Of a DNA stretch of 64,000 nucleotides, positions 1-24,207 are shown one piece after another; the stretch's first letter is position 1; every line of letters begins with the position of its first letter. Location: assembly GCF_032163395.1 (NCBI RefSeq), contig NZ_CP119968.1, positions 3,498,001 to 3,562,000 on the forward strand, read 5' to 3'. The translations under genes and the position numbers were made by a program. The notes beneath the pieces were generated by a model that was not told the origin of the DNA, made no database searches, and was given only the letters and a program-made list of their open reading frames with translations. The stretch is from Gloeocapsopsis dulcis (GTDB taxonomy: Bacteria > Cyanobacteriota > Cyanobacteriia > Cyanobacteriales > Chroococcidiopsidaceae).

Positions 1-1
1 T

Positions 2-925
2 GCCGATATCAACGTCGAGCGGGGACTAGATATTGCTAGCAAGTACCGAATCCGTTTTTTTGAAGACTACCGCGATTTGCTGCCTCATGTCGAAGCAGTT
101 TGTATTGCTGTTCCCACCCGCTTGCATCATGCTGTCGGGATGACCTGTCTCCAGGCGGGAATTCATGTTTTGATCGAGAAGCCAATTGCTGCTAGTATTG
201 CTGAAGCTGAATCTTTAGTAAATGCCGCAGCCCAATCACAGTGTATCTTACAAGTAGGTCATATTGAGCGCTTTAACCCAGCATTCCAAGAACTCAGCAA
301 AGTCCTGAAAACAGAAGAATTGCTGGCTTTAGAAGCACACCGCATGAGTCCTTATTCTCAGCGAGCAAACGATGTTTCGGTTGTGCTGGATTTAATGATT
401 CATGATATTGACTTGTTACTTGAGTTAGCTGGTGCACCGATTGTTAAGTTAACCGCTAGTGGTAGCCGTGCTGCTGGTTCTGGTTACTTAGATTATGTCA
501 CCGCGATTCTCGGCTTCGCTAATGGGATTGTTGCGACCCTCACTGCCAGCAAAGTGACTCATCGCAAAGTTCGGCGGATTGCGGCTCATTGTAAGAATTC
601 CCTGACAGAGGCAGATTTTCTGAATAACGAAATCTTGATTCACCGTCAAACAACCGCTAACTACATGACGGATTATGGTCAGGTCCTTTATCGTCAGGAT
701 GGTTTGATTGAGAAGGTTTACACAAGTAACATTGAACCTCTACACGCAGAATTAGAACACTTTGTGTCCTGTGTGCGGGGTGGCAATCAACCTTCTGTAG
801 GAGGCGAACAAGCACTTAAAGCTTTACGTCTAGCTAGTTCTATTGAACAAATGGCTTTAGACGGGAAAGCTTGGAAAGAAGAAGTAGAGCTTTATCAACG
901 GAATGGTTCTGCTGTTGTTATCTAA
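2..925 (+). CDS. Gfo/Idh/MocA-family NAD(P)-dependent oxidoreductase (5' end outside window)
   Basis: The reading frame is open from base 2, so the N-terminus (the dinucleotide-binding GxGxxG part) lies outside the window; 307 residues are visible. The EKP signature of the Gfo/Idh/MocA family occurs at about visible residue 58, in a stretch reading HVLIEKPIAA, followed by VGHIERFNPA, typical of the end of the Rossmann domain and the start of the C-terminal alpha/beta domain. The family oxidises or reduces sugars, sugar nucleotides or inositols, or acts as biliverdin-reductase-like enzymes; the substrate cannot be read here. A hairpin followed by a T-run lies just downstream. Family assignment firm, substrate unknown. 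Confidence 0.85.
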   Translation, partial: ADINVERGLDIASKYRIRFFEDYRDLLPHVEAVCIAVPTRLHHAVGMTCLQAGIHVLIEKPIAASIAEAESLVNAAAQSQCILQVGHIERFNPAFQELSKVLKTEELLALEAHRMSPYSQRANDVSVVLDLMIHDIDLLLELAGAPIVKLTASGSRAAGSGYLDYVTAILGFANGIVATLTASKVTHRKVRRIAAHCKNSLTEADFLNNEILIHRQTTANYMTDYGQVLYRQDGLIEKVYTSNIEPLHAELEHFVSCVRGGNQPSVGGEQALKALRLASSIEQMALDGKAWKEEVELYQRNGSAVVI

Positions 926-962
926 GCTTTTTTCAGAACATCACAAGTTAATTGGCAAGTTA

Positions 963-1000
963 AAGCCCAATTCTATGAAAAGATGAGGGCTGCTTTTTTT
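963..1000 (+). terminator. possible Rho-independent terminator after the oxidoreductase
   Basis: AGCCC (964-968) can pair with GGGCT (987-991), and seven T follow two bases later. The stem is short and the loop is about 18 nt, so this is a weak candidate. Confidence 0.4.
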
Positions 1001-1224
1001 GTTTTAGTCAGTTGTTTAACCAGATTAAGTATGAGAGGGGGGCAGGCAAGATGTCTACTTACCTATAAGTTTTATTAATCTATCTTTCTCTACATAGCTA
1101 AAAATTGCAGTCAGCCCCTAGCATAAGAAAGAATATTTTAATCATAAGTTTTACAAAATAACGCGTAAAGATACTAAAATCGAAACGGACAAAATCAACA
1201 CTCTGCTGTTGGAGGAGACCTCAT

Positions 1225-1362
1225 ATGTCTGATTTAGATCGTGGAATTATGAAGTTTAAGGGAGCCGATTCCCCAAAAGCAGTTGCAATTTCAACAATGC
1301 TGATATTGGGTTCAATTGCAGTCCTTATTTTATGGGCATTGCAGGTTGCTTATAGTCAATAG
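1225..1362 (+). CDS. 45-residue single-span membrane protein
   Basis: A short gene beginning ATG with a strong ribosome-binding site (GGAGGAG at 1211-1217). The product starts MSDLDRGIMKFKGADSPK and then has one hydrophobic segment, roughly residues 19-41, ending in VAYSQ. Size and layout (charged N-terminus, one helix) are like the small subunits of cyanobacterial photosystems or NDH-1, but I cannot name it with confidence. It stands alone, with about 300 bp of AT-rich DNA upstream that probably holds its promoter. Confidence 0.75.
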   Translation: MSDLDRGIMKFKGADSPKAVAISTMLILGSIAVLILWALQVAYSQ

Positions 1363-1579
1363 CTAGGTTGTAAGAACTAGAAATTTTGCGTAGCTTGCTT
1401 TCCGCAAAGGAGGGACGAGTTCGACTTACGCATAGTTATTAACTGTTAGACTTGAGCTTTGCAATATGTCTAGGTATTCCTTTAAAGTAGGAAAGAAGTA
1501 AATATTAGAAATAATCTTCGGTTGCGTTACTCCAGCCAACTGCAAGAAAAGTCCATAAACCCTAATTCCTAATTCTCAA

Positions 1580-4471
1580 ATGCTGCAAGTCTGGGGTGCG
1601 ATCGCTATTTTTTTGATCTGTCCCCTTATTGGCGGATTACCACTTATTGCTGGAATCGTATCAGCGCTGAGTGGGCGTAACTTAGGGAACTCAGGCACAG
1701 GTAATATTAGTGTGTCTGCAGCGTTTTATTATGGTGGTAAACTTGCAGGTATTCTTGCAGTTCTCTCGGAAGCCTTAAAAGGCATAGCTGCCGTTCTTTT
1801 AGCAAGGGCATTCTTTCCCCAAGACCCAGTATGGGAGTTAATTGCCTTAATTGCCTTAGTGATGGGACGTTATTGGATAGGTGGAGGCGCTGGGACAACA
1901 AATGTTGTTTGGGGTTTCATCGTTCACGATCCTGTTGTAGCAGGTTTAGTATTTCTCATTGGCGGAATTAGTTTCACCGTCTTACGCGAAAGGCAATTGG
2001 GAAAATTTGGCGTCTTGATTTTGTTTCCCTTGCTAACCGCACTGCTACGTCCTCATGATTCAGCTCGAATTGTCGCAGCGATCGCCCTAGCAATTTTACT
2101 AGGATGGATTTATCAAAAAATGCCTGACGATCTCGATTTAGCACCAGATGCAGGACACGCGGAGTCGCAAAAAGTGTTTCGCTTTTTTCGTGGTGATAAA
2201 GCTATAGTTTCCTTAAGTGATGAGTTGTCAGCGGCTCAAGTTGGACAAAAAGCAGCAACACTTTCACAATTAATTCGCTGGGGCTACCCTGTACCAAAAG
2301 GTTGGGTACTTCCTCCTGGTGACGACTCAGAACCTCTCGTTAACTATCTACCCTTAGAAAAGTCCCCCTTAGTTGTACGTTCCTCAGCCGTAGGTGAAGA
2401 CTCTCAGCAAGCTTCAGCAGCAGGGCAGTATAAAACGGTTCTAGGTGTAGCAAGTAAAGAGCAATTGCAGCAGGCGATCGCTACAGTTTTAGCTTCTTAC
2501 GACAACCCAGCGGCAATAGAATATCGCAAACAACGCGGTTTGCCAGAATCAGCAATGGCTGTTCTCATTCAACAACAAGTACAGGGCGTTTTTTCTGGAG
2601 TAGCATTTAGTCGCGATCCGATGACACAGCAAGGTGATACTGTTGTCATTGAAGCTTTACCAGGTGATGCCAGCAAAGTTGTGTCGGGACAAGTCACACC
2701 AGAACAATATCGCGTTATTGTGTCACATACTGACTTAGAACACAGCCAAAACTGGGTATTGCCGGAACATATAGCATTAAGTGTTGAGGGTGAAGGAGAC
2801 ATTCCACCTCGTTTGATTCAACAAGTTGCTTTCTTAGCGCGACACCTAGAAGCACGCTATCACGGCATTCCCCAAGATATCGAGTGGAGCTACGATGGTA
2901 AAACATTGTGGTTGTTACAATCGCGTCCAATTACAACGCTGCTACCAATTTGGACGCGCAAAATTGCTGCAGAAGTCATTCCAGGATTAATTCGTCCGCT
3001 GACTTGGTCGATCAATCGTCCTTTAACTTGTGGCGTTTGGGGAGAAATTTTTACAGTTGTATTGGGAAGTCGCGCTCGTGGTTTAGATTTTAATCAAACA
3101 GCAACACTGCATTATTCTCATGCTTATTTCAATGCTTCCCTGCTGGGACGGATATTTTTACGCATGGGTTTACCGCCAGAGAGTTTGGAGTTTTTAACGC
3201 GGGGTGCAAAGTTTAGTAAGCCCCCATTACGTTCCACTGTGCGCAATATTCCAGGATTGATGCGTTTGTTAAGTCGCGAGTTGAATTTAGCAAAAGATTT
3301 TCAAAAAGACGATCAACAGTACTTCCAGCCAGCATTAATTGAGTTGAACTCAAGCGATCGCGATCCAGTAAAACTACTATCACGCATAGATTTGATTCTA
3401 GAATTACTGAAAAAGGCAACGTACTATAGTATCTTGGCACCTCTGAGCGTGGCTTTGCGACAGGCGATGTTCAAGACAAAAGATGTAGAAATTGATTACA
3501 GCCTCACCCCAGAAGTGGCCTCAATGCGATCGCTTGTGCAACTTGCCGGTGATGCGCGTCGTGTCTTACCTGAGTCTCAAAATGTGTCTTCTGAAGAGGT
3601 GTTTACTCAGTTGGCTGAGACAAATCAAGGCAGGGAAATTATACAGCGATTTGATCAGTTGTTGGAGCGTTATGGCTATTTGAGTGAGGTGGGAACTGAT
3701 ATTGCCGTGCCTACTTGGAGAGAGGAACCGAAGTATGTACGGGAGTTGTTTGTGCAGTTTGTAGTGAGTGGGGATTTGGGAGAAAACGAACCACACAGAC
3801 GCAGAGGACGCCGAGGCAAGAGAGTAGTACAAGGGCGAGTTGATTTGAAGGGGAGGGTGACTGAGGTTTATAGTCAGTTGTTGGCGCATTTGCGTTGGTG
3901 TTTTGTGGCGTTAGAACGAGTGTGGTTAGAGTCGGGATTGCTGGTGTCTAAGGGGGATATTTTCTTTTTGGAGTTTGCGGAAGTGCGGCGGATTGTTGTG
4001 GATGGTGACTCTAAGTTGAGTTCTCAGTTAAAAGAACTTGTGGAACAGCGGCGATCGCAACTTGAACAAGATAGTAGCTTAGATGTACCTTTATTAGTCT
4101 ATGGCCATGCCCCCCCAACTCCCTCTGCTTTCTCTGCTTCCTCTGCTTCCCTACTACAGGGTATTGGTGCTAGTCCTGGTAAGGTAGAAGGGCGGGTGAA
4201 GGTACTACGAAATTTGCAAGCGACTTCTGAGATTGACCGAGAGACGATTCTTGTTGTGCCGTATACAGATTCTGGCTGGGCACCATTATTAGCAAGATCG
4301 GGCGGGCTGATTGCAGAAGCGGGAGGACGACTTTCTCATGGTGCAATTGTGGCGCGCGAGTATGGATTACCAGCAGTTATGGATATTCACAATGCCACCG
4401 TTATTTTACAGGATGGTCAACGAGTACAAATAGATGGTCAATTGGGAACAGTGCAAATTTTGGCAGATTAA
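1580..4471 (+). CDS. PlsY-like membrane domain fused to PEP-synthase/rifampicin-phosphotransferase-like domains
   Basis: A 963-residue fusion. Residues 1 to about 195 are a multi-span membrane domain like the glycerol-3-phosphate acyltransferase PlsY, with SGTGN near residue 39 in place of the usual GSGNPGATN motif and GGGAGTTN where PlsY has GGKG. From about 205 to 455 is a PPDK/PEP-synthase ATP-grasp domain (VRSSAVGEDS from about residue 265, ending in LLQSRPI). A helical middle region follows. The C-terminus is the phosphohistidine swivel domain with GGRLSHGAIVARE; the His is residue 920. The pyruvate-binding barrel is absent, as in rifampicin phosphotransferases. The changed PlsY loops make acyltransferase activity uncertain. 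Two repeat-like stretches lie inside the frame (listed separately). Confidence 0.8.
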   Translation: MLQVWGAIAIFLICPLIGGLPLIAGIVSALSGRNLGNSGTGNISVSAAFYYGGKLAGILAVLSEALKGIAAVLLARAFFPQDPVWELIALIALVMGRYWIGGGAGTTNVVWGFIVHDPVVAGLVFLIGGISFTVLRERQLGKFGVLILFPLLTALLRPHDSARIVAAIALAILLGWIYQKMPDDLDLAPDAGHAESQKVFRFFRGDKAIVSLSDELSAAQVGQKAATLSQLIRWGYPVPKGWVLPPGDDSEPLVNYLPLEKSPLVVRSSAVGEDSQQASAAGQYKTVLGVASKEQLQQAIATVLASYDNPAAIEYRKQRGLPESAMAVLIQQQVQGVFSGVAFSRDPMTQQGDTVVIEALPGDASKVVSGQVTPEQYRVIVSHTDLEHSQNWVLPEHIALSVEGEGDIPPRLIQQVAFLARHLEARYHGIPQDIEWSYDGKTLWLLQSRPITTLLPIWTRKIAAEVIPGLIRPLTWSINRPLTCGVWGEIFTVVLGSRARGLDFNQTATLHYSHAYFNASLLGRIFLRMGLPPESLEFLTRGAKFSKPPLRSTVRNIPGLMRLLSRELNLAKDFQKDDQQYFQPALIELNSSDRDPVKLLSRIDLILELLKKATYYSILAPLSVALRQAMFKTKDVEIDYSLTPEVASMRSLVQLAGDARRVLPESQNVSSEEVFTQLAETNQGREIIQRFDQLLERYGYLSEVGTDIAVPTWREEPKYVRELFVQFVVSGDLGENEPHRRRGRRGKRVVQGRVDLKGRVTEVYSQLLAHLRWCFVALERVWLESGLLVSKGDIFFLEFAEVRRIVVDGDSKLSSQLKELVEQRRSQLEQDSSLDVPLLVYGHAPPTPSAFSASSASLLQGIGASPGKVEGRVKVLRNLQATSEIDRETILVVPYTDSGWAPLLARSGGLIAEAGGRLSHGAIVAREYGLPAVMDIHNATVILQDGQRVQIDGQLGTVQILAD
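3788..3822 (+). repeat. intergenic-type repeat carried in frame inside the fusion gene
   Basis: The purine-rich stretch around 3788-3822 has the cyanobacterial dispersed-repeat style (CACAGACGCAGAGGACGC) normally seen between genes. Here it is read as an Arg/Gly-rich segment (HRRRGRRGKR) in the helical middle region. Confidence 0.45.
4121..4152 (+). repeat. CTCTGCTTC tandem repeat in frame in the domain linker
   Basis: Copies of CTCTGCTT(T/C) run in tandem and encode a Ser/Ala/Phe-rich linker directly before the swivel domain. This looks like a pyrimidine-strand version of the GCAGAG repeats used between genes in cyanobacteria. Confidence 0.5.
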
Positions 4472-4561
4472 AGTTATTCGTTTGTATTGGGGTTTGTTGA
4501 GTAAGGCTAAACATCCTGGCAAGCAAACTCAGATCAATTAAAAATCTAAAAACACAACGAT

Positions 4562-5425
4562 ATGACTCGTCGAGCATTGTTATTAATCAATCGTCACGCT
4601 CGTCAAGGACAAAATTCACAAGCGATCGCTCAACTGCAAAAGTTGGATTTGGAGTTGATACTAGAGAACATTGAAGATGTGCGGTTTCTACCGGAAATTA
4701 TTCAGAGTTACAAAGATAAGGTAGATTTAGTCATCGTTGGTGGTGGTGATGGGACTTTGAATGCTGCAGTTGACGGTTTAGTAAGTACTCAGCTACCTTT
4801 GGGCATCTTGCCTTTAGGAACAGCTAACGATTTAGCACGTACCTTAGGAATTCCTAATTCTCTATCTGAAGCTTGCAAAATCATCGCTAGCGGTAATGTT
4901 CAACACATTGACTTAGGCTGGGTTAATGGCAAGCACTTTTTCAATGTTGCCAGTCTTGGGCTGAGTGTTCAAATCACACAAAAACTCACGAAAAAAGCTA
5001 AACGGCGTTGGGGAGTTTTTGCTTATGCCATCACTGCAATAAAAGCTATGTGGCAAGTACGACCATTTCATGCAGAAATTCGTCTCAACGGACAAACAAT
5101 ACAGCTGAAAACTATTCAAATTGCAATCGGAAATGGTCGTTACTATGGAGGTGGAATGACAATCGTACACGATGCTAAGATCAACGATCAGAGGCTAGAT
5201 GTGTACAGTTTAGAGATACAGCACTGGTGGCAGATGTTAGCTTTGTTACCTGCTTTACGGCGGGGAAGGCACACCGCATCCTTGGGTGTTCGTACTTTTC
5301 ACGCTCAGGAAATAGAAGTTTATACTCGCAAACCCCGCCCAATTAATACTGATGGAGAAATTACAACCTACACACCTGCACATTTTCGCGTTATTCCTCG
5401 CGCTTTAGCTGTTTTGGTGCCATAG
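4562..5425 (+). CDS. diacylglycerol kinase family lipid kinase (YegS/DgkB-like)
   Basis: The 287-residue protein has the DAGK catalytic signature GGGDGT at residues 60-65, followed by LPLGTANDLAR, where the nucleotide-binding loop and lid lie. It should phosphorylate diacylglycerol or a related lipid, or be a YegS/BmrU-type soluble lipid kinase, at the inner membrane face. Length is normal for the family (about 300). It follows the PlsY-like fusion by 90 bp and precedes exoD by 30 bp on the same strand, suggesting a lipid/envelope transcription unit. Confidence 0.88.
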   Translation: MTRRALLLINRHARQGQNSQAIAQLQKLDLELILENIEDVRFLPEIIQSYKDKVDLVIVGGGDGTLNAAVDGLVSTQLPLGILPLGTANDLARTLGIPNSLSEACKIIASGNVQHIDLGWVNGKHFFNVASLGLSVQITQKLTKKAKRRWGVFAYAITAIKAMWQVRPFHAEIRLNGQTIQLKTIQIAIGNGRYYGGGMTIVHDAKINDQRLDVYSLEIQHWWQMLALLPALRRGRHTASLGVRTFHAQEIEVYTRKPRPINTDGEITTYTPAHFRVIPRALAVLVP

Positions 5426-5455
5426 CTATTTCAATGCGGAAATACCACACACCCG

Positions 5456-6055
5456 ATGCTGAGATTTTCTCAAGATATTAAATTGTTGCTAGAAAAGTTA
5501 GCCTCTCAGCCACTTACTATTGGCGATATTCTGGCAGAAACTTCGGAAAGAGGCTTTAGCTTAGTTATTGCATTGCTTGTCTTACCCTTTCTGTTTCCAA
5601 TGCCTCCAGGCTTTACAGGTCCTTTGGGTTCAGCCTGCTTATTACTTTCGCTACAAATGGTTATGGGGCGGCGATCGCCTTGGTTGCCTAGAAAAATTGC
5701 CCAATTTCGATTTCCTCGCCGATTTGTCTTACAAATTCTCCGAAACTTAAGGCGTATTACGCGAGTTATTGAAAAGATTGCACGTCCTCGATTAACAGCA
5801 TTTGCCCAAAGTCAAATTACCTGGCAGCTCAACGGACTTTGCATTTCTTGGCTGACAATACTTCTTATCTCGCCAATTCCATTTACAAACCCTATACCTA
5901 CAGTGGGAATTTTATTACTTGCAGTGGCTACTTTAGAAGCTGATGGTTTACTTATGTGTATCAGCTATGTACTGACTGCTCTTATTACCTTGATAGTTGT
6001 ATCAATTGGCTATACACTTTGGCAAGCTCCTCATGTTTTGCCGAGTTTATTTTAA
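5456..6055 (+). CDS. exoD: ExoD-family exopolysaccharide synthesis protein
   Basis: A 199-residue membrane protein of the ExoD family: hydrophobic segment LVIALLVLPFLFPMPPG, then a GRRSPWLPRKI loop and two further hydrophobic stretches. ExoD was found through its effect on exopolysaccharide production and alkali tolerance in rhizobia; its molecular activity is unknown. Start ATG 30 bp after the lipid kinase stop, same strand. Confidence 0.82.
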   Translation: MLRFSQDIKLLLEKLASQPLTIGDILAETSERGFSLVIALLVLPFLFPMPPGFTGPLGSACLLLSLQMVMGRRSPWLPRKIAQFRFPRRFVLQILRNLRRITRVIEKIARPRLTAFAQSQITWQLNGLCISWLTILLISPIPFTNPIPTVGILLLAVATLEADGLLMCISYVLTALITLIVVSIGYTLWQAPHVLPSLF

Positions 6056-6135
6056 AGCAAAAGCCCCAAGAAGGAAAGAGGAGATTATCCTCAATTCACA
6101 ACTCTTGGAGCTGACAATCTACAAGAAATTTGAAC

Positions 6136-6606
6136 TTAGCGAGTTTCCTTGCGTCGATCAACAACCTGAACTTCTGGCTGGTTAGTTGTACTGACTACAT
6201 TGCGCTCAGTAGTATCGCTAGCATAGCGCTGCGCTCTTGGCTCTACCTTAGTGTGAGTAGACATGGTGTTTGCGTAACTGTCGCTAGCTGGCATATCATA
6301 TACCTTCCACCCCTGAACACCTCGATTGCTTAGAACTGTGCTAGCGCGGTCAATATCTGCTGCAGTGCCTTCTATAAACACCAAGTAGTCACCATGAGAA
6401 ACACGATCGCTATATGCCTTGGCATCTTCTTCAGGAATCCCTAATCCTGTAAGGGCACCGACAATACCTCCTGCTGCTGCGCCAATACCTGCACCAGCTA
6501 AGGTAGTTGCAATTGTTCCACCTGCGAGAAATGGACCTACTCCAGGAATCAGCAATGCTTCTAAACCTACTAGTAAGCCACCAACGCCTCCTAGTACTGT
6601 ACCGAG
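6136..6606 (-). pseudogene. N-terminally truncated Gly-rich stress protein (YflT/GSP17M-like)
   Basis: The surviving frame holds the Gly/Ala-rich hydrophobic core (LIPGVGPFLAGG) and the terminal alpha/beta repeat (GDYLVFIEGTAADIDRA) of cyanobacterial general-stress-like proteins. It runs upstream to a stop at 6607-6609 without the usual N-terminal repeat, although residues before the first possible start (TTG, 6555) still look like the protein (VGGLLVGLEALLIPGVG). The break coincides with the start of the cas12k fragment on the other strand, so the 5' part was removed by a rearrangement. A full-length relative lies at 15480. Confidence 0.7.
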
Positions 6607-6828
6607 CTAAAGATAAACGGCACGTCGATCAGTTCAGCAGTAGCGATCACACAAACCTATAAAGCTGGCAGTATCGTTTTGCCTAAGCTAGGGGATATGC
6701 GGGAGATTGTCCAAAGTGAAATTCAAGCCATAGCCGAAGCAAAAGTTCCTGGCTACGTAGAAGCCCATGAAAAGGCAAAGGAATTAGCACTTTCTGCTTA
6801 CCATCTCCGCCTAGCTAGGCGAAGTTGA
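6604..6828 (+). pseudogene. cas12k: cas12k C-terminal fragment (type V-K CAST effector), internally deleted
   Basis: The open frame (no start, TGA at 6826-6828) reads TYKAGSIVLPKLGDMRE, then VQSEIQAIAE..VPGYVE, then KAKELALSAYHLRLARRS. From memory of the Cas12k of the Scytonema CAST, the first part matches its RuvC-like C-terminal region almost residue for residue and the last part matches its extreme C-terminus; the roughly 50 residues normally between PGY and the KAKELALSAY tail are missing, in frame. Cas12k is the nuclease-inactive, RNA-guided targeting protein of type V-K CRISPR-associated transposons. About 570 N-terminal residues are absent, so it is dead. It is followed, as in intact elements, by a tracrRNA/repeat/guide region. 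Confidence 0.88.
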
Positions 6829-6949
6829 CAAATATCTGAACCTTGACAATAAAATAATCAATAGCCAATTGAGGTGCTAATACCGTGTATTACTCTGAAG
6901 TGGCAACAACTCTCCAGGTATTGGGTGGGTTGTCATAATTTTTACTAAA
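6829..6949 (+). other. decayed tracrRNA region of the CAST
   Basis: In V-K elements the tracrRNA gene lies directly downstream of cas12k and spans about 200 nt. Here only about 120 bp separate the cas12k stop from the homing guide. An AT-rich start with ATAAAATAAT and AATAGC resembles what I recall of the Scytonema element, but the stem-loops cannot be reconstructed by eye. Probably internally deleted. Confidence 0.4.
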
Positions 6950-6961
6950 GAGGGTTGAAAG
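6904..6961 (+). CRISPR. degenerate V-K repeat plus truncated 3' repeat of the delocalised crRNA
   Basis: 6904-6932 (CAACAAC...GGGTGGGTTG) has the ends and spacing of a type V-K direct repeat, with several mismatches in the middle and loss of the terminal AAAG. After 17 bases, 6950-6961 reads GAGGGTTGAAAG, the conserved 3' end of V-K repeats, directly abutting the guide. This spacing matches the atypical, shortened repeat that carries the homing guide in V-K CASTs. There is no array of ordinary spacers. Confidence 0.65.
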
Positions 6962-6979
6962 AGAGCGCTACGTTGACAT
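6962..6979 (+). ncRNA. delocalised CAST homing guide matching tRNA-Val
   Basis: The 18 bases AGAGCGCTACGTTGACAT follow immediately after GTTGAAAG and are identical to 23350-23367 in the tRNA-Val gene of this window. The match stops after 18 nt (guide TATCGC versus tRNA CGTAGA), as expected for delocalised guides, which typically match only about 17-20 nt of a tRNA. The target has GGTT 5' of it, fitting the NGTN PAM of V-K systems. Confidence 0.85.
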
Positions 6980-7013
6980 TATCGCTATAGTCTCCGTGAA
7001 TAAATGACATTAA

Positions 7014-7905
7014 CAGGACTTACGCAAGAGTCATTTGAATGGACGGATGCTGGAGTTGTGCAATCAAATAATCTCAGAGCATCCCGTGCTTGATCTGGTA
7101 GATAGTCTTACTGCTGTGGTAGGCAATCGAATTGAGCCGAATCCAAACGAGTAAGGCACAAGCAAGATGATTGCGTTGAATGCGAGGTTTACGACATTGG
7201 CAAGCTGCGAGTGCGGTTAAGTGCTTCAACTCACGGTGAAACTCCTCAATCTGAAGAGCGGATGCCACAGGCATCTTGCACAGCATCAGTGTCAGCTTGG
7301 GCTAAGTCGTTGGTGGCGACAAATTCCGTCGTGTTGGTAGCAACAGTGACTCGCAACAGTTTCACCTTTTTAACTTTCGGGAAGCCTGGGATGTTGAGCA
7401 ACTTGCCTTGCTGCACATCGCTATCACTCCAGACCAGTTCATCCCCGCGCACGTACGGTGCACTGCCGCCACTATCATCGACGCGACGGTTGGTTTTGAG
7501 TGGGCAGTAATACACGCCGAATTGGTCGATTTGCCCCATCAACTTCGGCGTTGCGTACCAGCTATCCATCAAGACGGTACGAAACGATAACTGCTTGCTG
7601 TAGACTACTCCCTTCAGCATGTTGGCAACACGATCCAACTTACTTTGTCCATCCCCATCCAGGTCATCGACTCGATAGTCAATTGGGGATGGCTGTAGCA
7701 GCAGTTTAACGTTGTCCCACAGCAACCGAGGCGTTAGCCTCTCGCCCCGAAGATAGCGATTGATGCGGTCATGGCTAATGCCTTCTAGATGGTCAGCCAG
7801 ATGAGTGACGGTGTAGTTGATAGGACTGCTCAGCAAACTACTGCCAGTACTCCAGTTTGGTGAAGCTCGTTTCTCCCGTCTAAAACTACTTTTGCGTAAG
7901 TCCTG
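7014..7905 (-). mobile_element. IS copy A (IS701/IS4-like), 892 bp, internally deleted
   Basis: The ends are inverted repeats: CAGGACTTACGCAA at 7014 and its complement TTGCGTAAGTCCTG ending at 7905. No target duplication is evident (left flank ATTAA, right flank TTTCT). Inside, on the minus strand, are pieces of one DDE transposase. The first 693 bp are collinear with copy B at 23515-24207. The element adjoins a CAST remnant on its left. Confidence 0.85.
7074..7905 (-). pseudogene. IS transposase, internally deleted and frameshifted
   Basis: The minus frame reads ISHDRINRYLRGERLTP, then jumps from LLLQPSP to DGDGQSKLD, losing the segment that would carry the first catalytic Asp and about 55 following residues. 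It continues through MLKGVVYSKQLSFRTVLMDS and the TNRRVDD and WSDSDV parts. After GIRSSD a stop is met; the rest (QIEEFHRELKHL ... IYQIKHGML) is in another frame, where CTCTTCAGATT replaces the expected CTGGCAGATT. Both defects are shared with copy B, so neither copy encodes an active transposase. Confidence 0.8.
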
Positions 7906-8006
7906 TTTCTGTTTGCGAATAACTTGTGAGAATACGATTCTTGAATACAAGCTCCGAGATTGAAGTTTAGCTTTTCGAAGATAGCTTTCCTTTTTCGGCT
8001 CAAACA

Positions 8007-8303
8007 CTAAAGCTCTTTTTTGCTCACCGCAACTCCTGCCCCAAATCCACCGATCCCTGCAATTCCTGCAATTATTACCTTTTCTGCAAGTTCCTTGGCC
8101 TTTGTTAAACCTGCATATCCAAAGACCATCAGAACAAGGACAAGAATTGCTCCCATGCCCAATCTTTTTGTGTTTTCGCTGGATTGACTCTTCTTAAAGT
8201 TGCGTTCATTCTCTTTTTCGAGATTATCGAGAGTCTGAGTTATGTGTTCAGAAGTAACGCGCTTGGCTAGCGGTGAAGAACCAGACGATGATGTGCGTTC
8301 TAT
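8007..8303 (-). CDS. small two-span membrane ORF in frame after the TetR stop
   Basis: Directly behind the TAG of the TetR gene, in the same frame, 98 codons stay open to a TAG at 8007-8009. They encode a polar first half (KRVTSEHITQTLDNLEKENE) and a hydrophobic second half with two likely helices (MGAILVLVLMVFGYAGL and VIIAGIAGIGGFGAGVAV). No ATG/GTG/TTG occurs near the 5' side; TTG at 8162 or ATG at 8156 would give only about 50 residues. It may be a gene whose start was lost, or a former C-terminal extension of the regulator. Confidence 0.35.
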   Translation of the reverse strand: MERTSSSGSSPLAKRVTSEHITQTLDNLEKENERNFKKSQSSENTKRLGMGAILVLVLMVFGYAGLTKAKELAEKVIIAGIAGIGGFGAGVAVSKKEL

Positions 8304-8915
8304 CTATTGGTTCTCTTCAACAGTCGATTGAATTATTGATTCCAATGCTGCTTCAATTCGCCGCCAACCAGTGGATGAATCAAAATCTATTCCCATGAAT
8401 GAGTTGCTAACTTTAGTACGCAGTGTCAAATAGACAACTCCTGCAACTAAAACAGCACTAATTGCAGGAATATCCTTGTCTGGAGGAAATGAACCCTTTT
8501 GCTCAAGAAATTTCAGACTATCTAAAGCTAGTTGATCGCGGACATTCGCTAATTCACGGGTTAGTTCGTTCCCTTCTAGTAACTCCCATCTAAGAATTTC
8601 CTGTGTAATCGGACGCTCCTTTAAATCATGCAGAAATCCTAGCAACAGATAGGTCATCCAGTCTGCTAATGTCTCGGCGTCAACGCTAGATTCATCACCA
8701 ATTAGCTCTTTAGCTGAAATCCAATAGCCTCCCTCTTTCCCGAAAGACTGAAGTAGAGACGGTAGCCCATCAAAATATCGGTAAATCAAGACCTTATCAA
8801 CACCAGCTTCACGGGCGATCGCATTGACTCCCAATTGCTTAAACCCAGACTCGGCTAATAGTTTGCCGACTGCTGCCAAAATCCGAGCTTTGGTTTCCTC
8901 TTTATCACGAGCCAT
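8304..8915 (-). CDS. TetR/AcrR-family regulator of the thioesterase
   Basis: A 203-residue protein with an N-terminal TetR helix-turn-helix at about residues 9-50 (RILAAVGKLLAESGF ... VDKVLIYRYF). The C-terminal domain is the variable ligand part. It is divergent from the thioesterase at 9015, and two 16-bp inverted repeats lie between them, the arrangement of a self-regulating TetR repressor that also controls its neighbour. Start ATG at 8915. Confidence 0.85.
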   Translation of the reverse strand: MARDKEETKARILAAVGKLLAESGFKQLGVNAIAREAGVDKVLIYRYFDGLPSLLQSFGKEGGYWISAKELIGDESSVDAETLADWMTYLLLGFLHDLKERPITQEILRWELLEGNELTRELANVRDQLALDSLKFLEQKGSFPPDKDIPAISAVLVAGVVYLTLRTKVSNSFMGIDFDSSTGWRRIEAALESIIQSTVEENQ

Positions 8916-8934
8916 GAATCCTTCTCACCTGCTT

Positions 8935-8977
8935 GTCACTTACTGGTGACTATGATAGTGTGTCACTGAGCAGTGAC
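8935..8977. promoter_or_regulatory. two tandem TetR-type operators
   Basis: GTCACTTACTGGTGAC (8935-8950) and GTCACTGAGCAGTGAC (8962-8977) are inverted repeats of the same length and arms (GTCAC..GTGAC), 27 bp centre to centre, between divergent tetR and thioesterase genes. Confidence 0.7.
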
Positions 8978-9014
8978 TTATGAGATACCTGATTTTTGCT
9001 GATGAGAGTAGACT

Positions 9015-9437
9015 ATGCAGAAAATTTTCTTTGACTTAGATATTTACTCCTACCAAATTGACTTTATTGGTCACGTCAACAATGCTGTTTATATTCACTG
9101 GATGGAGATAGGACGGACTAAACTGCTTGAAGCGGTTGGAATGCCAACTCACGAGATTTTTAAGCAAGGATTTGCACCAGTTTTAGTTCAAACTAGCATT
9201 ACCTATAAATCACCGTTGCATTTAGGCGATCGCGTTCAAATAGAACTCTGGCTGTCTGAGTTGCGCAATGCTTCTGCTATTATGCAATTCCGTTTCTACA
9301 ACACTCAACAGACACTCGCGGCTGAGGGCGTTCAAAAAGGCTTGTTTGTTGACAAGCAAACTATGCGTCCACGGCGGCTTTCTCCAGAAGAAAGAGCTTG
9401 GTTTATCCCATATTTAGACTCAAGTATTAAAGTTTGA
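9015..9437 (+). CDS. acyl-CoA thioesterase, 4HBT hotdog fold
   Basis: A 140-residue protein, full length for the family. The hotdog signature is near the N-terminus: Asp16, His20, Asn22/Asn23 in IDFIGHVNNAVYIHWME, where the Asp is the usual catalytic residue. It should hydrolyse acyl-CoA or acyl-ACP thioesters, possibly aromatic ones. It is divergent from the TetR gene, and its 3' end overlaps that of the convergent Rieske gene by 18 bp. Confidence 0.88.
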   Translation: MQKIFFDLDIYSYQIDFIGHVNNAVYIHWMEIGRTKLLEAVGMPTHEIFKQGFAPVLVQTSITYKSPLHLGDRVQIELWLSELRNASAIMQFRFYNTQQTLAAEGVQKGLFVDKQTMRPRRLSPEERAWFIPYLDSSIKV

Positions 9438-10418
9438 AAGATTAGGCTCTGTAACATGAGGAAAGCTCTTAAAGTTACGCCGTACCCAGTCCATACCTAC
9501 TTCATTGTTGAGTTTAATTTTCTGTGGCGCATCTGAATAAATTTTTCCCAGAATATCGGCATCTTGATTTACAACGACATTACCAAACTGAAGATAAGTA
9601 TCGCCAAATAGCTTGAAGGCAGGGTGTTTTGCTTGACCAAATAGCAAAATGTAAGTTCGCGTTCGATTTTCGGCTTCTGGTACAAAAATGTGACACTGCG
9701 CAGCTTTACCCAGTGGCATTTCTCCATGAAAAATGACAAGGGATGGAAAGTAATTTTCTAAATGTGCTTTAATCGTGCTGGGCAGTAAGAATAAATCTGG
9801 TTTCTTGAGCTTTTCGATCAAGCTGTAAGGTGCTGTGGGCATAGCATAAAATGCATGGGAATGATGCCCGTGATCAATGAATTGATGAAATTCTACTTCG
9901 GTAATCCGAAACAAGTCGCGGTGAGTACCATTTTGATGATTGTAGTCATGCATGATCAGCAGCATAGTCAATAAATCTGTTTCGACACTTGTATCTGCTG
10001 TATATCCAACAAAGTAATAGGTCTTGGCAATCTCATTGAGTACAGTAGGAATTGGTACTTTTGGTTTGTGTTCTCCATAAGACCAAATAAAATCACCCTG
10101 AATTGTTAAAGGTAAGGGATTGAGTTGAGGTAACGTTTTTTTATTTGATCCAGGCAAAACAGTGCAGCCTTCTGCATCAAATTTCAAAGCATGAAAAGGA
10201 CACGCGACAACACTTGCGCCATCACTTTGTGCTTCGCACCATCCTTCTGATAACATCGCTCCCATGTGAGGACAAGCATTAGGTAGTGCATGGACATTTC
10301 CCACAGCATCCTTCCACATCACATAATCGCTACCATACAAGGACATTTTGCGGGGTTGCGCTGACAGCATCGACTTATGCGCCAACAACCAAGGTGCGCC
10401 AGGAAGCATTGACGACAT
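9420..10418 (-). CDS. Rieske non-haem iron oxygenase
   Basis: 332 residues. The Rieske [2Fe-2S] ligands are Cys49/His51 (CPHMGAML) and Cys73/His76 (CPFHALKF). The mononuclear iron site is DYNHQNGTH, with Asp158, His161 and His166, so both metal centres look intact. The protein belongs to the aromatic-ring-hydroxylating or demethylating oxygenase alpha-subunit group; the substrate is not readable and no dedicated reductase is beside it. It is divergent from a TetR gene (52 bp apart), which probably controls it. Confidence 0.87.
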   Translation of the reverse strand: MSSMLPGAPWLLAHKSMLSAQPRKMSLYGSDYVMWKDAVGNVHALPNACPHMGAMLSEGWCEAQSDGASVVACPFHALKFDAEGCTVLPGSNKKTLPQLNPLPLTIQGDFIWSYGEHKPKVPIPTVLNEIAKTYYFVGYTADTSVETDLLTMLLIMHDYNHQNGTHRDLFRITEVEFHQFIDHGHHSHAFYAMPTAPYSLIEKLKKPDLFLLPSTIKAHLENYFPSLVIFHGEMPLGKAAQCHIFVPEAENRTRTYILLFGQAKHPAFKLFGDTYLQFGNVVVNQDADILGKIYSDAPQKIKLNNEVGMDWVRRNFKSFPHVTEPNLSNFNT

Positions 10419-10470
10419 GATCTTCTCCGCTCGATATAAAATTGTGAGGAATTAGTCGTGTTTTTAGAAT

Positions 10471-11244
10471 ATGACAAAATATTCGCATTCGTCAAGAAGT
10501 TTGCGCCGTCAACCCAAACAGCAGCGTGGTAAGGAACGAGTTGAAAAAATCTTGGATGCAGCAGCAGCAGTGTTTGATAAAGTGGGCTATGCAGCGGCGA
10601 CAACTCACCTCATTGCGGCAAAAGCAGAAACGGCGATCGGCTCTGTCTATCAATTTTTTCCCGATAAAGCTGCCATTTTTAAAGCAATGGAGTTACGGCA
10701 TATTGAGCGAGTCAAAGCGATGTGGGCACAAGCCAACAAGCAGAAAATCACTCAGTTAACATTCCGCCAAATGATCCACGCGCTAGTAACTGCGGTAGTC
10801 GAACTGTTTGAGCAACCTGTGTCGCGGGTAGTATTTGTACAGTTTTTTAGCTCCCGCGAGATGTTTCAGTTGATTGATGAAAGTATGACTCAGGAAGCCA
10901 TTGATTTTGCTGCAAGTCTCTTCAAGCAAAGAAATCCAACGTTAGATGAGGCACAATCTAGTCTACTAGCAGAAGTTTGCGTTCACAGCAGTAACGCCGT
11001 TATTCTCGCTGCACTTCGCAACCCAGATGAACAGCATCGTCAACAGTTGGTGCAGCAAATTGAGGAGTTGTTTGTGTCATATCTAGAACCGTACATGGGT
11101 GACAATCGGTTAGACGATGTAATGAACATAATGAAATGCCCGCATTGTCGATCGCAGCAGTTATCTAAAAATGGTCATAGAAGAGGAAAGCAATGCTATC
11201 TCTGCAAAGAGTGCGGCAAGCAGTTTGTTGAATTAGCTGTTTAG
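10471..11244 (+). CDS. TetR-family regulator with a C-terminal IS1-type zinc ribbon
   Basis: 257 residues. Residues about 20-70 are a TetR DNA-binding domain (RVEKILDAAAAVFDKVGYAAATTHLIA ends there in two adjacent helices), followed by a ligand-type domain to about residue 215. The last 37 residues, starting at an internal Met221, are a zinc ribbon with Cys223/Cys226 and Cys245/Cys248, spaced as in the N-terminus of IS1-family InsA (GKQCYLCKECGKQF). The frame runs into this piece without a stop. The extension is most likely a captured IS fragment. Divergent from the Rieske oxygenase gene. Confidence 0.83.
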   Translation: MTKYSHSSRSLRRQPKQQRGKERVEKILDAAAAVFDKVGYAAATTHLIAAKAETAIGSVYQFFPDKAAIFKAMELRHIERVKAMWAQANKQKITQLTFRQMIHALVTAVVELFEQPVSRVVFVQFFSSREMFQLIDESMTQEAIDFAASLFKQRNPTLDEAQSSLLAEVCVHSSNAVILAALRNPDEQHRQQLVQQIEELFVSYLEPYMGDNRLDDVMNIMKCPHCRSQQLSKNGHRRGKQCYLCKECGKQFVELAV

Positions 11245-11274
11245 GTGAAATTCAAACAACCTCCCTACTTTACT

Positions 11275-20078: not shown

Positions 20079-20231
20079 ATTTACTAATTTAGAAAGACTA
20101 CAAACAAGTCATAACCTTTCTGGTAGTTAAATAATTCAACTACGCTTAAGTATGTGCGATCGCAAAAGTATTTATTAATTTACAGCCTGAATACACTCTT
20201 ATTTTCAATTTTATTGAAATTAAAACTAGTA

Positions 20232-21092
20232 TCATTTACTAGTAAAAGTCTTAAATTTCCGCATAACAGAGCGATAAAGAGGATATATATTACCATACTG
20301 CTGATTCATTAATTTGAAAGCTGTAAGTTCTCTTTCAAAGTTACCTGAATACTGAGAAATCTGCTGTTTAAGTTGATGTTGTGCATATTGGTAAAGCTGA
20401 ATATCTAACTGGTTGTAGCGTTGAATAATCTCTAAAGTTTCCTGTGGTATATTTTCTTTAGGCTGCCGATTTTTAGTTACATTCTCTCTAACATAAAACG
20501 GTGTTTTCCAGTCAAAAATTTTCTTTAGTAAGATAAGTGTTTCATCAAACTTTTCTGTAATTCCTATAACAGAAAAATGTGTTTCTAAGTTTTGCTTAGC
20601 TTTTTCTAAAGCTTTCCCAGTAATTTCATCAAAGCCTACCTTTGATTTATTTACTGCTGCCAGTATTCTAGTTTGACTATTATTAACCTCAGTAGTGATG
20701 CCATTACTTACATATTCTTGTAAAGTTATTTTGTTATCTTTTACTTGTTTATGTAATCTGTGCTGAGGGTTACGAATTACATAGTAGTAGTGAGAAATGA
20801 CTCTGTCTACTGGATCTCGTAGCATTGTAATATAAGTAGAGGGCTGCGGTAGATACTCATGCAAACCAAAACTCATATGCCCTTTCAAGACTTTGATTCT
20901 TTGTCTCTGTTCTTCAGGTAAATTTTTAAACTTATTCGTTGAATCTATAACGTTTAAACCATCAATAGAATAAATAACTTTAGACGAATACTGTCGTTCG
21001 ATTATATTATGTAGCGTACTACCAGAAGCTTTGGGAATATGTAGAAAGATTATTGACTTTTCTTGATTAGAGTCTTGATTTAAGCTTGCCAT
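20232..21092 (-). CDS. sulfotransferase family protein
   Basis: 286 residues. The 5'-phosphosulfate loop is FLHIPKASGSTLHN near residues 16-29, and the 3'-phosphate motif is LRDPVDRVISHYYY. This is the membrane-type (heparan-sulfate/Stf0-like) sulfotransferase family that uses PAPS to sulfate carbohydrates. No predicted glycan genes are adjacent; base composition is more AT-rich than the housekeeping genes around it, and it borders a mobile element, consistent with transfer. Confidence 0.85.
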   Translation of the reverse strand: MASLNQDSNQEKSIIFLHIPKASGSTLHNIIERQYSSKVIYSIDGLNVIDSTNKFKNLPEEQRQRIKVLKGHMSFGLHEYLPQPSTYITMLRDPVDRVISHYYYVIRNPQHRLHKQVKDNKITLQEYVSNGITTEVNNSQTRILAAVNKSKVGFDEITGKALEKAKQNLETHFSVIGITEKFDETLILLKKIFDWKTPFYVRENVTKNRQPKENIPQETLEIIQRYNQLDIQLYQYAQHQLKQQISQYSGNFERELTAFKLMNQQYGNIYPLYRSVMRKFKTFTSK

Positions 21093-21154
21093 CAGAAGCT
21101 ATTCTATGTGGTAATTTGATGTGGTAACTATAATATATTCTATTGATGTTTCTA

Positions 21155-22036
21155 TTATGTTAAGAGCAGCAGGCTACAATGATTACTTTTGACTTCTCCT
21201 CCGCATAAATGACGGGGGATTCTAAACGGATACTGCGTGGTAGGTTGAAACCGTATCACTTTGCGTCTGTTTAGCTGACCAGTGATATCTGCTAGTTTTT
21301 TAGACCAGAAACCTTGTGGCTTATTCTCTTTGAGTGTAGATTGCTTGTTGTACCAACGATTTAGGGACTTAACGTACTTGCCGTCAACAATAAAGCTTAG
21401 TCCTGTATTAGAAAGGCAAGTTAGCCAGTTATTTAAACCTGGATCGATACCTAGCACTTTGTCTTTATCTAGAGAGACATTAACCTGTTCTAACTTATAG
21501 ATAAACTCAGCATAAAAACAGCCATTTCTAGGTAGGATTCGCAATTCCTTGATGTCTGCAAACTTTAAGTTAGATGGCATGGGAATAACAAAGCTATCTA
21601 AGCCAAACCAGCACTTAACTTGTTTGCCTAAAGGGATACGGATCTGGTTATCTTTCAGTTTTACAGCTTGTTTAGGATAAGTTACCAGCGCTAAACCCCC
21701 AGATTTTCTATACTTTGGAGGTTTTGGTTTATTTGTCAATTCTCCTCGATTAAAAGCCTGTTTTAGCTTCTTGAATGACTCAAATGACTCAGCAACAGTT
21801 CTAAGTATTTGTTGTGCCGCTTGCGAGTACAAAGCTTTAAAGTGCTTATTGGTTTTGTACTCTGCGCTGTCTTTGTCGTACTTGCCAATTAGTTTATCTG
21901 CCTTAAAATATAACTGTCTGGCAGAATAGATACCGCAATTAATTAAACTATTTGCTTGTTGGCAAATAAATTCTAAGACTGATTTTAATTTGATATTTGG
22001 GTGCAGCAACATCTGTTGATAACCGTACAAATACAT
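21155..22036 (-). pseudogene. tnpB: TnpB (IS200/IS605), C-terminally replaced
   Basis: 293 residues; TnpB-like up to about residue 258 (KLADITGQLNRR). RuvC-I Asp198 is present in LGIDPGLNNW, but the RuvC-II Glu, the zinc finger and the RuvC-III Asp are all missing. The last about 35 codons are translated right-end DNA of the element. An internal deletion has joined the gene to its own right end, so no nuclease can be made. Confidence 0.82.
21189..21262 (-). ncRNA. 3' end of the TnpB omega-RNA (reRNA) scaffold
   Basis: In TnpB elements the guide RNA overlaps the tnpB 3' end and the right end, with the guide just outside. The minus-strand sequence runs GGTTTCAACC..., then GTTTAGAATCCCCCGTC, then the hairpin and TCAA. 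The terminal scaffold is retained; the first part was lost in the deletion. Confidence 0.5.
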
Positions 22037-22165
22037 TGCCTCCTAGTTAAATAATATACAATATCATAACTTGATTAAATATTAAGATATAATGCAAGAC
22101 TGGCAGAGCTTCAGTATGCCTTTTCTCGTTTTTATCCCCCGCATGAATGACGGGGGCTTTCAACC
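21189..22165 (-). mobile_element. IS605-type element with both terminal hairpins, deleted tnpB
   Basis: On the minus strand the right end carries the hairpin around 21199-21218 (CCCCCGTCATTTATGCGGAG) and ends AGTCAA at 21189. The left end carries CCCCCG (22136-22141) paired with CGGGGG (22151-22156). No tnpA is present, so it could only move with help from elsewhere. Confidence 0.72.
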
Positions 22166-22566
22166 GAAGTGCATGGTAAATCTGTTCTGTCATCGTTGCA
22201 AATCGAAACTTCTACGGTGAATAGGTGATTTTCGATACTTGTGACTATTGCCGTAGCATTCTCGCCTTTGTCCATGATGAAAGTGGCATCCGTGCCGATA
22301 CAGCTACCGATTGTCTCTGCTTCCTCCCTTAAAAAGTAACGAACGGTTTACCGTTATGAAGAAATAAGAAATTACTGGTTACTTTCTGATAGTCCTGAAG
22401 CAGAGGAATCTCTTGATATCCTCCATAGTTGGCATCCCATGCTGAGTATGTTTAACAATCCAGTGCCAAAACTACCACCAATTCAAAAGGATGCAGCTTA
22501 AATTTTCAGTAACACCGCAGCTTGTTGAATTACGGTGTTTTATTTGGACAAAGTAGGTATGCTACG
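22166..22566. other. region with gene remnants only
   Basis: Two short fragments without starts are visible: a minus frame about 22131-22350 (GSCIGTDATFIMDKGENATAIV) running into the IS605 left end, and a plus frame ending TAA at 22499-22501 (DSPEAEESLDILHSWHPML). Neither could be assigned to a family. Confidence 0.4.
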
Positions 22567-22824
22567 ATGCAAGAAATCTTTATCCTCACTGAACACGCAC
22601 AAGAGAGGTTACAGAAAAGAAAAATAAAGCAGGAATGGATACTTCGAGCTATACAAGAACCAGATTTAACACGACCTCATGAGAATCTTCCTGACCGTGA
22701 ACACGTATTCAAGAAAATTGAGGAGTATGAAGGTAGGGTTCTTAAGGTTGTTAAATCTAAAGAAGGACTACCATTCACTATCTATACGGTTCACGTTGAT
22801 AGAGGTATGAAGGGTAAGGTTTGA
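22567..22824 (+). CDS. DUF4258 protein, toxin-like partner
   Basis: From ATG 22567, 85 residues (MQEIFILTEHAQERLQKRKI); upstream in-frame codons are not protein-like. The H-x6-R..R arrangement (LTEHAQERLQKR) is the DUF4258 signature, a small RelE/ParE-like fold group found with DUF2283. One base separates its stop from the next start. Probably the toxin half of a toxin-antitoxin-like pair; activity unproven. Confidence 0.78.
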   Translation: MQEIFILTEHAQERLQKRKIKQEWILRAIQEPDLTRPHENLPDREHVFKKIEEYEGRVLKVVKSKEGLPFTIYTVHVDRGMKGKV

Positions 22825-22825
22825 T

Positions 22826-23086
22826 ATGAAAATTGATTATAGTACCGATGCGGTTTACATTGAATTTAACACCAAGCCAGCAGTAGATTCTATTGAAATA
22901 GTAGACGGTGTTATTTTTGACCTGGATGAAGATGATGAGGTTACTGGTGTTGAAATACTTGATTTGAAGTACAAGACACCAGAACAGATTAAGAAGATTC
23001 ATCAATACACTGAATACCCTATCAAGCCTGAGTATCTGCAACAGTTAAAAGATTTATTTGGCAGTGCTATTCCGTGTGGTGTGTAG
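22826..23086 (+). CDS. DUF2283 protein, antitoxin-like partner
   Basis: 86 residues starting MKIDYSTDAVYIEF, followed by VDGVIFDLDEDDEVTGVEILD, the DUF2283 consensus. Acidic and short, coupled to the DUF4258 gene with a 1-bp gap. Such pairs are frequent in cyanobacteria next to mobile DNA. The last about 15 residues (LFGSAIPCGV) fall outside the conserved part. Confidence 0.78.
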   Translation: MKIDYSTDAVYIEFNTKPAVDSIEIVDGVIFDLDEDDEVTGVEILDLKYKTPEQIKKIHQYTEYPIKPEYLQQLKDLFGSAIPCGV

Positions 23087-23328
23087 ATAAAGGAATAGTC
23101 CTAGCTCGATTTGTTTTCGTTGATTTTATCTAGCAACTCTTAAAATCAATAGCTTCCATTGGAATACTTCCTCTTTTACTTCTCGTTTTCATTTGTTGAG
23201 TATTCCTTGAGTATTCAGAGGAAGGAATATTAGGTTTTAAGACTCTCGAACCAGTGATGCTGACGAACGCAAGGTTCGGCTGCGTCGTTGACCGATACGA
23301 TGTTTGAGTGCTATGATGTTTTTTCTAT

Positions 23329-23402
23329 GGACGTATAGCTCAGTTGGTTAGAGCGCTACGTTGACATCGTAGAGGTCCCCCGTTCGAGCCGGGGTACGTC
23401 CA
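23329..23402 (+). tRNA. trnV: tRNA-Val (anticodon GAC)
   Basis: 74 nt that fold as a cloverleaf: acceptor GGACGTA/TACGTCC, D-stem GCTC/GAGC, anticodon stem CTACG/CGTAG with loop TTGACAT (anticodon GAC), T-stem CCCCG/CGGGG with loop TTCGAGC, discriminator A, CCA not encoded. It is the target of the CAST homing guide at 6962. Confidence 0.96.
23346..23367 (+). other. CAST PAM and protospacer inside tRNA-Val
   Basis: GGTT at 23346-23349 fits the NGTN PAM of Cas12k; the 18 bases that follow (23350-23367) are identical to the guide at 6962-6979. The transposon end begins 57 bp after the PAM. Confidence 0.8.
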
Positions 23403-23406
23403 TTCT

Positions 23407-23514
23407 TGTAAAGTACCAAATTATATGTCATCGGTGACACGCTTGTGTCATCGTGACTAATTGTTTGTCGTTGTGACTAATTAGATATTGCTTAAGTGCT
23501 AGTGACAAATTAAT
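23407..23514 (+). mobile_element. target-proximal end of a type V-K CAST (TnsB-binding repeats), truncated
   Basis: Starts TGTAAAGTACCAAATTAT, then carries the TnsB-type motif several times: TGTCATCGGTGACA, TGTCATCGTGACTAATT, TGTCGTTGTGACTAATT and GTGACAAATTAAT. Spacing and sequence closely resemble the left end of the Scytonema CAST as I remember it. It begins 5 bp after the tRNA-Val 3' end, where a tRNA-homing V-K element should insert. Cut off after 108 bp by IS copy B; no tnsB, tnsC or tniQ follows. Confidence 0.83.
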
Positions 23515-24207
23515 CAGGACTTACGCAAGAGTCATTTGAATGGACGGATGCTGGAGTTGTGCAATCAAATAATCTCAGAGCATCCCGTGCTTGATCTGGT
23601 AGATAGTCTTACTGCTGTGGTAGGCAATCGAATTGAGCCGAATCCAAACGAGTAAGGCACAAGCAAGATGATTGCGTTGAATGCGAGGTTTACGACATTG
23701 GCAAGCTGCGAGTGCGGTTAAGTGCTTCAACTCACGGTGAAACTCCTCAATCTGAAGAGCGGATGCCACAGGCATCTTGCACAGCATCAGTGTCAGCTTG
23801 GGCTAAGTCGTTGGTGGCGACAAATTCCGTCGTGTTGGTAGCAACAGTGACTCGCAACAGTTTCACCTTTTTAACTTTCGGGAAGCCTGGGATGTTGAGC
23901 AACTTGCCTTGCTGCACATCGCTATCACTCCAGACCAGTTCATCCCCGCGCACGTACGGCGCACTGCCGCCACTATCATCGACGCGACGGTTGGTTTTGA
24001 GTGGGCAGTAATACACGCCGAATTGGTCGATTTGCCCCATCAACTTCGGTGTTGCGTACCAGCTATCCATCAAGACGGTACGAAACGATAACTGCTTGCT
24101 GTAGACTACTCCCTTCAGCATGTCGGCAACATCATCCAACTTACTTTGTCCATCCCCATCCGGGTCATCGACTATCGAGTCGATTGGGGATGGCTGTAGC
24201 AGCAGTT
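23515..24207 (-). mobile_element. IS copy B, right end missing
   Basis: Collinear and nearly identical with the first 693 bp of copy A (offset 16501), with the same internal deletion and the same frameshift in the transposase. It ends after CAGCAGTT, where copy A continues with another 199 bp to its terminal repeat. The right border falls inside the penicillin-acylase remnant. Confidence 0.85.

Follow-up and report, generated by a model that had tools for sequence, protein, structure and literature searches.

A stretch of 64,000 nucleotides from Gloeocapsopsis dulcis (contig NZ_CP119968.1; hereafter, the window) very probably preserves a fossilized type V-K CRISPR-associated transposon (CAST) that homed to a tRNA-Val gene and was afterwards reduced by decay, split by insertion sequences (IS) and rearranged by an inversion. 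The guide, its target and the joined left end are directly present in the sequence. From these, we infer a homing event in which a crRNA combining a truncated repeat with an 18-nt guide would have led Cas12k to GGTT and AGAGCGCTACGTTGACAT within the tRNA gene, and the transposase would have inserted the element with its left end on the downstream side, 57 nt from the PAM and immediately beyond the tRNA. Decay would then have cost the element its right end, tnsB, tnsC, the tracrRNA region, most of cas12k and almost all of the array. IS701-type copies would have cut through the left end at ATTAA, and an inversion of what lies between these copies (from somewhere in the 7.9-to-9.0-kb range to 23.5 kb) would have moved the tRNA, together with the outer left end, 16.4 kb away from the guide. 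A preliminary description of the window had already proposed a delocalized V-K homing guide, and its elements (truncated repeat, 18-nt guide, GTN PAM, tRNA target and cas12k context) all hold, with the same unit recurring in cyanobacteria. Beyond that description lie the death of the element, the position of the left end at 23407, right after the tRNA, and the recognition of the 16.4-kb spacing as inversion-like, with one IS701-type copy per breakpoint interval.

Guide, tRNA target and what is left of the element

The truncated repeat (R*; GAGGGTTGAAAG, 12 nt, aligned with its homologues) occupies positions 6950 to 6961 of the plus strand and is followed directly by the anchor spacer, i.e., the delocalized homing guide, at 6962 to 6979 of the same strand (AGAGCGCTACGTTGACAT, 18 nt). 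As the preliminary description had it, these bases are identical (18/18) to 23350 to 23367, the plus-strand protospacer within a tRNA-Val(GAC) gene (23328 to 23403, plus strand; found by ARAGORN, Rfam tRNA score of 66.5 bits), with the PAM, GGTT, immediately 5' of it at 23346 to 23349 (plus strand), in agreement with a GTN motif. Guide and target are 16.4 kb apart on one strand. A scan of the plus strand of the window found AGAGCGCTACGTTGACAT at these two places only, and a fixed 18-mer is expected 1.9e-6 times per window and 1.6e-4 times per genome, counting both strands and assuming equal base use. The next six bases are TATCGC at the guide and CGTAGA in the tRNA; the identity thus ends after 18 nt and is not part of a longer tRNA duplication. 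At gathering thresholds, Rfam returned only tRNA in the window.

The neighboring cas12k fragment, recognized before from the letters alone, is real. It spans 6610 to 6828 on the plus strand (72 codons and a stop) and consists of a C-terminal part with an internal in-frame deletion, the rest upstream being gone; its stop codon at 6826 to 6828 gives the 121-bp distance to 6950 that had been reported. Its translation (P0001) matched the NCBIfam model V_Cas12k with an E value of 3.5e-16 and 58.7 bits, below the cut-off of 150 bits, as well as five distinct sequences of Cas12k chains in the PDB (best E value of 5.4e-25). Because P0001 aligns to chain 7n3o_A in two separate segments (residues 530 to 584 and 607 to 639), an internal stretch of Cas12k must be absent. 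Among the 30 cas12k loci compared, the DNA of L024, a V-K CAST locus of G197, a genome of the same family, scored highest. Two parts of its cas12k were 85% and 84% identical to the remnant, and 149 nt of it (L024 3195 to 3343) face 11 nt here. Judged by these alignments, 6610 to 6828 is derived from cas12k.

Little else of the element survives. In the whole 5.6-Mb genome, the 72-codon remnant was the single cas12k match (55.3 bits against the 150-bit cut-off), and the intact cas12k gene of a type V-K CAST is missing; the same model also gave weak matches in 2 of 14 control genomes, none above the cut-off. TnsB and TnsC of G197 (L039), used as queries, had no match in the genome of the window but did match in each of the five other genomes used as controls (in G045 weakly, at ca. 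30% identity). Downstream of the cas12k stop, 37 nt (6829 to 6865, plus strand) form the end of an alignment to L024 3344 to 3445 and finish approximately at the expected tracrRNA start, which in Anabaena is 35 nt after the cas12k stop according to excerpts of the CvkR paper (PMC9938897). The alignment to L024 resumes only at a single degenerate CRISPR repeat (6900 to 6932, plus strand), which is 83 to 86% identical to the L024 array repeats over 28 to 35 nt and aligns with the last repeat of Nostoc-type loci, as R* does with theirs; this break indicates that the tracrRNA region and the array have been lost from the locus. Neither a tracrRNA nor a CRISPR array was found after cas12k, this one degenerate repeat being what remains. 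There is no right end beside the cas12k remnant, which starts at 6610, and with the loss of this end and of the element's own target duplication the insertion is not demonstrable from both ends. A plasmid collection contained no match to the relic (distant mode) or to the IS (near mode). The element is almost certainly inactive, and without Cas12k it is very unlikely that this genome can make any use of the guide.

The anchor spacer of V-K elements, or delocalized crRNA, was reportedly described in 2021 by Saito and by Hsieh and Peters. In the excerpts available of the CvkR paper (PMC9938897), it consists of an R* of ca. 12 nt and a spacer usually of 17 nt, with a GTN PAM, a target usually located in a tRNA and the left end downstream of that tRNA, 46 to 82 nt from the PAM with one exception of 147. 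The locus described here agrees in all of these features, including the PAM-to-end distance, except that its spacer measures 18 nt (matching the tRNA at 18/18). It also differs from the published V-K CASTs, as far as those excerpts go, in that cas12k is a remnant, tnsB and tnsC were not found and an inversion separates guide and tRNA, and in the position of R*, which comes straight after the last repeat where the published layout sets it clearly apart from the array. Excerpts of PMC11406308 describe V-K attachment sites as mostly diverse tRNA genes and the homing guide as truncated and apart from the other crRNAs in nearly all cases. The literature searched yielded neither this tRNA-Val anchor nor this relic, both of which may be in print. 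The find is a well-preserved fossil of an already known kind, the type V-K homing element.

The split left end and the inverted segment

The left end of the transposon lies in two pieces, each bordered by an IS701-type copy. The inner piece (6980 to 7013, plus strand) follows the guide and is cut after ATTAA by copy 1 (7014 to 7906; 893 bp, with its transposase encoded on the minus strand). The outer piece (23407 to 23514, plus strand) starts with TGT beside the tRNA-Val, 57 nt from the PAM and so inside the 46-to-82-nt range, and adjoins copy 2, which is truncated (23515 to 24207, minus strand). Both IS copies have the same orientation, are 98% identical over 693 to 699 nt and turn the same IS end toward the left-end pieces. 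Compared with L053, a Nostoc-type locus with an identical guide, the guide plus inner piece (6962 to 7013) was identical at 50 of 52 positions and ended at position 52 counted from the guide start, and the outer piece was identical at 80 of 108, from position 48 on. Of the 12 homologues with a guide (the 11 contigs and also L024), 8 entered the left-end alignments (all but L045, L048, L058 and L060), and six of these gave the same division, 1 to 52 and from 48, L047 and L055 giving 1 to 50 and from 46. All 16 alignment scores were above the best of 200 query shuffles, and the outer piece aligned only partially in L059 (62 of 108 nt) and L024 (96 of 108 nt). The coordinates of the pieces are complementary with a 5-bp overlap, ATTAA, so that both fit one left end. 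Reading this overlap as a target duplication is unconfirmed by the IS family, since among other IS701 copies the diverged L100 shows a 4-bp duplication (TTAT) and none was seen at L095, L096 and L099. Another reading of the end after the tRNA, as belonging to a standard element that extends away from this gene, offers no explanation for the guide; it was dropped because the Nostoc loci and the excerpts of PMC9938897 place the guide end beside the tRNA.

Comparison with both other genomes of the genus included in the analysis (G119 and G017) revealed the rearrangement. Window positions 1 to 6603 and 24207 to 39.8 kb are collinear with them, and between these blocks the segment 8980 to 20089 and the tRNA are reversed. 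Positions 6604 to 8979, ca. 20090 to 23328 and 23404 to 24206 have no counterpart in the compared pieces, nor, in G017, has ca. 9427 to 11271. One IS701-type copy is found in each breakpoint interval (6603 to 8980 and 23403 to 24207). The left breakpoint can be placed only within its interval because 7907 to 8979 lacks a counterpart. The place at which the left end is cut suggests the IS borders themselves as the probable breakpoints. We took the order in the window as the derived one because both intervals hold IS copies next to the split transposon end. The gene found at 6136 in the window has the tRNA as its neighbor in G119 and G017, where the tRNA faces it. If the segment is turned back, the tRNA would come to lie just right of this gene and would face the cas12k-guide piece, as in the Nostoc loci. 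The same-strand spacing of 16.4 kb appears non-native and fits an inversion, which would account for both the distance and the shared strand. The stretch is not purely vertical, since the T-arm of the tRNA-Val (23377 to 23394) differs from that of both same-genus genomes and resembles that of G045, and the G119 piece has nothing that corresponds to ca. 3.2 kb left of the tRNA. The history of the tRNA may be mosaic.

As to how the segment was turned, inversions between inverted IS copies are common, and homologous recombination of two inverted IS701 copies, in place of transposition from the inside ends of an IS pair, would be an ordinary explanation of this last step. It is an unlikely one, if still a serious contender, because the two left-end pieces would then be expected to face opposite IS ends, and the IS copies to be oppositely oriented, whereas the same IS end faces both pieces, the copies share one orientation and ATTAA is present on both; the simple recombination model was set aside for the first of these reasons. 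Such a pattern is one that needs an event less usual than plain recombination. Two inverted IS copies whose inside ends jointly attacked the left end would fit it, and in Tn10 the inside ends of an IS pair are known to act together.

The distance of 16.4 kb and the non-native orientation could also suggest two separate CASTs, one of which left an end at the tRNA-Val and the other the cas12k-guide piece at 6610 to 7013. This is very improbable, as the two left-end pieces are complementary at one site with their 5-nt overlap, neither the relic nor the outer piece has a second match in the genome beyond the IS ends (for 23404 to 23516, the sole match is itself) and the position of the tRNA by the gene at 6136 in G119 and G017 implies that the pieces were together before the inversion.

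The guide in other cyanobacteria

The search for the same tRNA-Val guide in related cyanobacteria, suggested in the preliminary description, was successful. A degenerate R*-guide pattern, run against public genome contigs, matched 18 stretches, 11 cyanobacterial and 7 from other organisms. Nine of the 11 cyanobacterial contigs carry the identical 18-mer after GAAAG and two (L058 and L060) carry variants; GGGTTGAAAG is kept across the homologues retrieved with this pattern. Guide and tRNA-Val target agree in all 10 contigs with a tRNA in view; in L060, the variant lies near the contig end and the search expression found no tRNA. Since most letters were set in advance in both search expressions, and GGTT was required by the second, the informative point is L058, in which A replaces G at the sixth base in guide and tRNA alike. 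In 9 of the 10, the guide is 157 to 255 nt from its target, on the opposite strand and with a transposon end between them, and in 8 of these 9 the PAM-to-end distance is 57 to 61 nt (57 in the window; L056 was unscored by the end motif). The tenth, L048 (Nostoc sp. XA010), has guide and target on one strand, 3,547 nt apart, and the transposon end after its tRNA, also 57 nt from the PAM, is of a different appearance (L048 4360 to 4760 and 7914). Leaders were alike in 8 of the 10 contigs aligned and unlike in L045 and L058 (L060 was left out). The seven noncyanobacterial stretches (L044, L046, L049 to L052 and L061) were dropped on the look of their 40-nt flanks, L044 (Mesorhizobium) being tRNA-like beyond the 18 nt and the other six being taken as chance.

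Seven Nostoc-type V-K elements at tRNA-Val (L047, L053 to L057 and L059) share with the window an identical guide, a similar leader and an alignable left end. They differ in having guide and target 157 to 197 nt apart on opposite strands, compared with 16.4 kb on one strand here. The V-K CAST of G197 (L024 and L039) likewise has an alignable left end and a guide-like sequence at the same place, but its cas12k is open, its array is present and its guide-like sequence differs from the tRNA-Val target at 2 of 18 sites. No tRNA was found in the 33 kb fetched for L024, and this element, with its two differences in the guide-like sequence (L024 4583 to 4634), has possibly moved from its home site.

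A set assembled independently of this guide comprised 30 cas12k loci (L009 to L038), 20 of which had a tRNA in the fetched flank. A match of 13 to 19 nt to that tRNA followed a repeat-like GAAAG or GAAA in 14 of the 20 (in three of them, the last G of GAAAG falls within the tRNA match); L009, L011 and L016, which are among the 14, target another part of tRNA-Val. The remaining six showed no such guide at 13 exact nt. Across the order, Cas12k matches of any strength were present in 81 of 243 genomes, in 60 of them above the cut-off.

Some further observations concern layout. In L047, L048, L053 to L057 and L059, as at 6900 to 6961 of the window, R* directly follows a last array repeat without its 3' end, and the linker between the two is conserved (TATCATAATTTTTATTAG-like), a layout that differs from the published "usually clearly separated" one. 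L055 carries, ca. 270 to 325 bp before the guide, a short near-palindrome of two facing transposon-end sequences among the CRISPR repeats. In L063, from G045, a genome without a cas12k match in the survey of 243, the sequence right after the tRNA-Val resembles by eye a decayed CAST left end (blocks GACTAATTAGT and GACAAATTAATG) and is perhaps a second fossil of the same homing.

That the guide is intact at 18/18 while cas12k is ruined might be ascribed to selection, either for use in trans by a visiting Cas12k or as a re-insertion marker. We consider this very improbable. The flanks differ from those of L053, the one homologue compared, at 6 of 65 sites, a rate at which 18 unchanged sites have a P value of 0.17, so selection is not needed to account for the intact guide; a further argument against it is that the alignment to L024 ends at about the expected tracrRNA start. 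Least credible of all is a chance match or tRNA-fragment duplication unrelated to a CAST, the latter (without a conserved repeat-like flank) having been named in advance as fatal to the homing guide: tRNA fragments do occur beside mobile elements, and L044 (1 of the 18 pattern matches) stays tRNA-like past 18 nt, but only 1.6e-4 exact matches are expected genome-wide, the identity here stops at 18 nt, other genomes share the repeat-like flank and the left end, and the variant base of L058 is shared by guide and tRNA.

A probable record of homing and of the death of an element

An orphan guide could conceivably outlive its transposon as a usable address, one that an incoming V-K element bringing an active Cas12k and a tracrRNA might use in trans. 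We regard this as a long shot; if true, dead elements would keep steering new ones to the same tRNA. As the fossil of a homed V-K element, the locus unites guide, PAM, target and joined end in one window and would thus be a natural record of guide-directed homing. It also displays how such an element may die, through a large deletion, disappearance of the array, damage to the transposon end by IS copies and inversion. Because an inversion can separate guide and tRNA, searches for these elements should include guide relics far from any tRNA.
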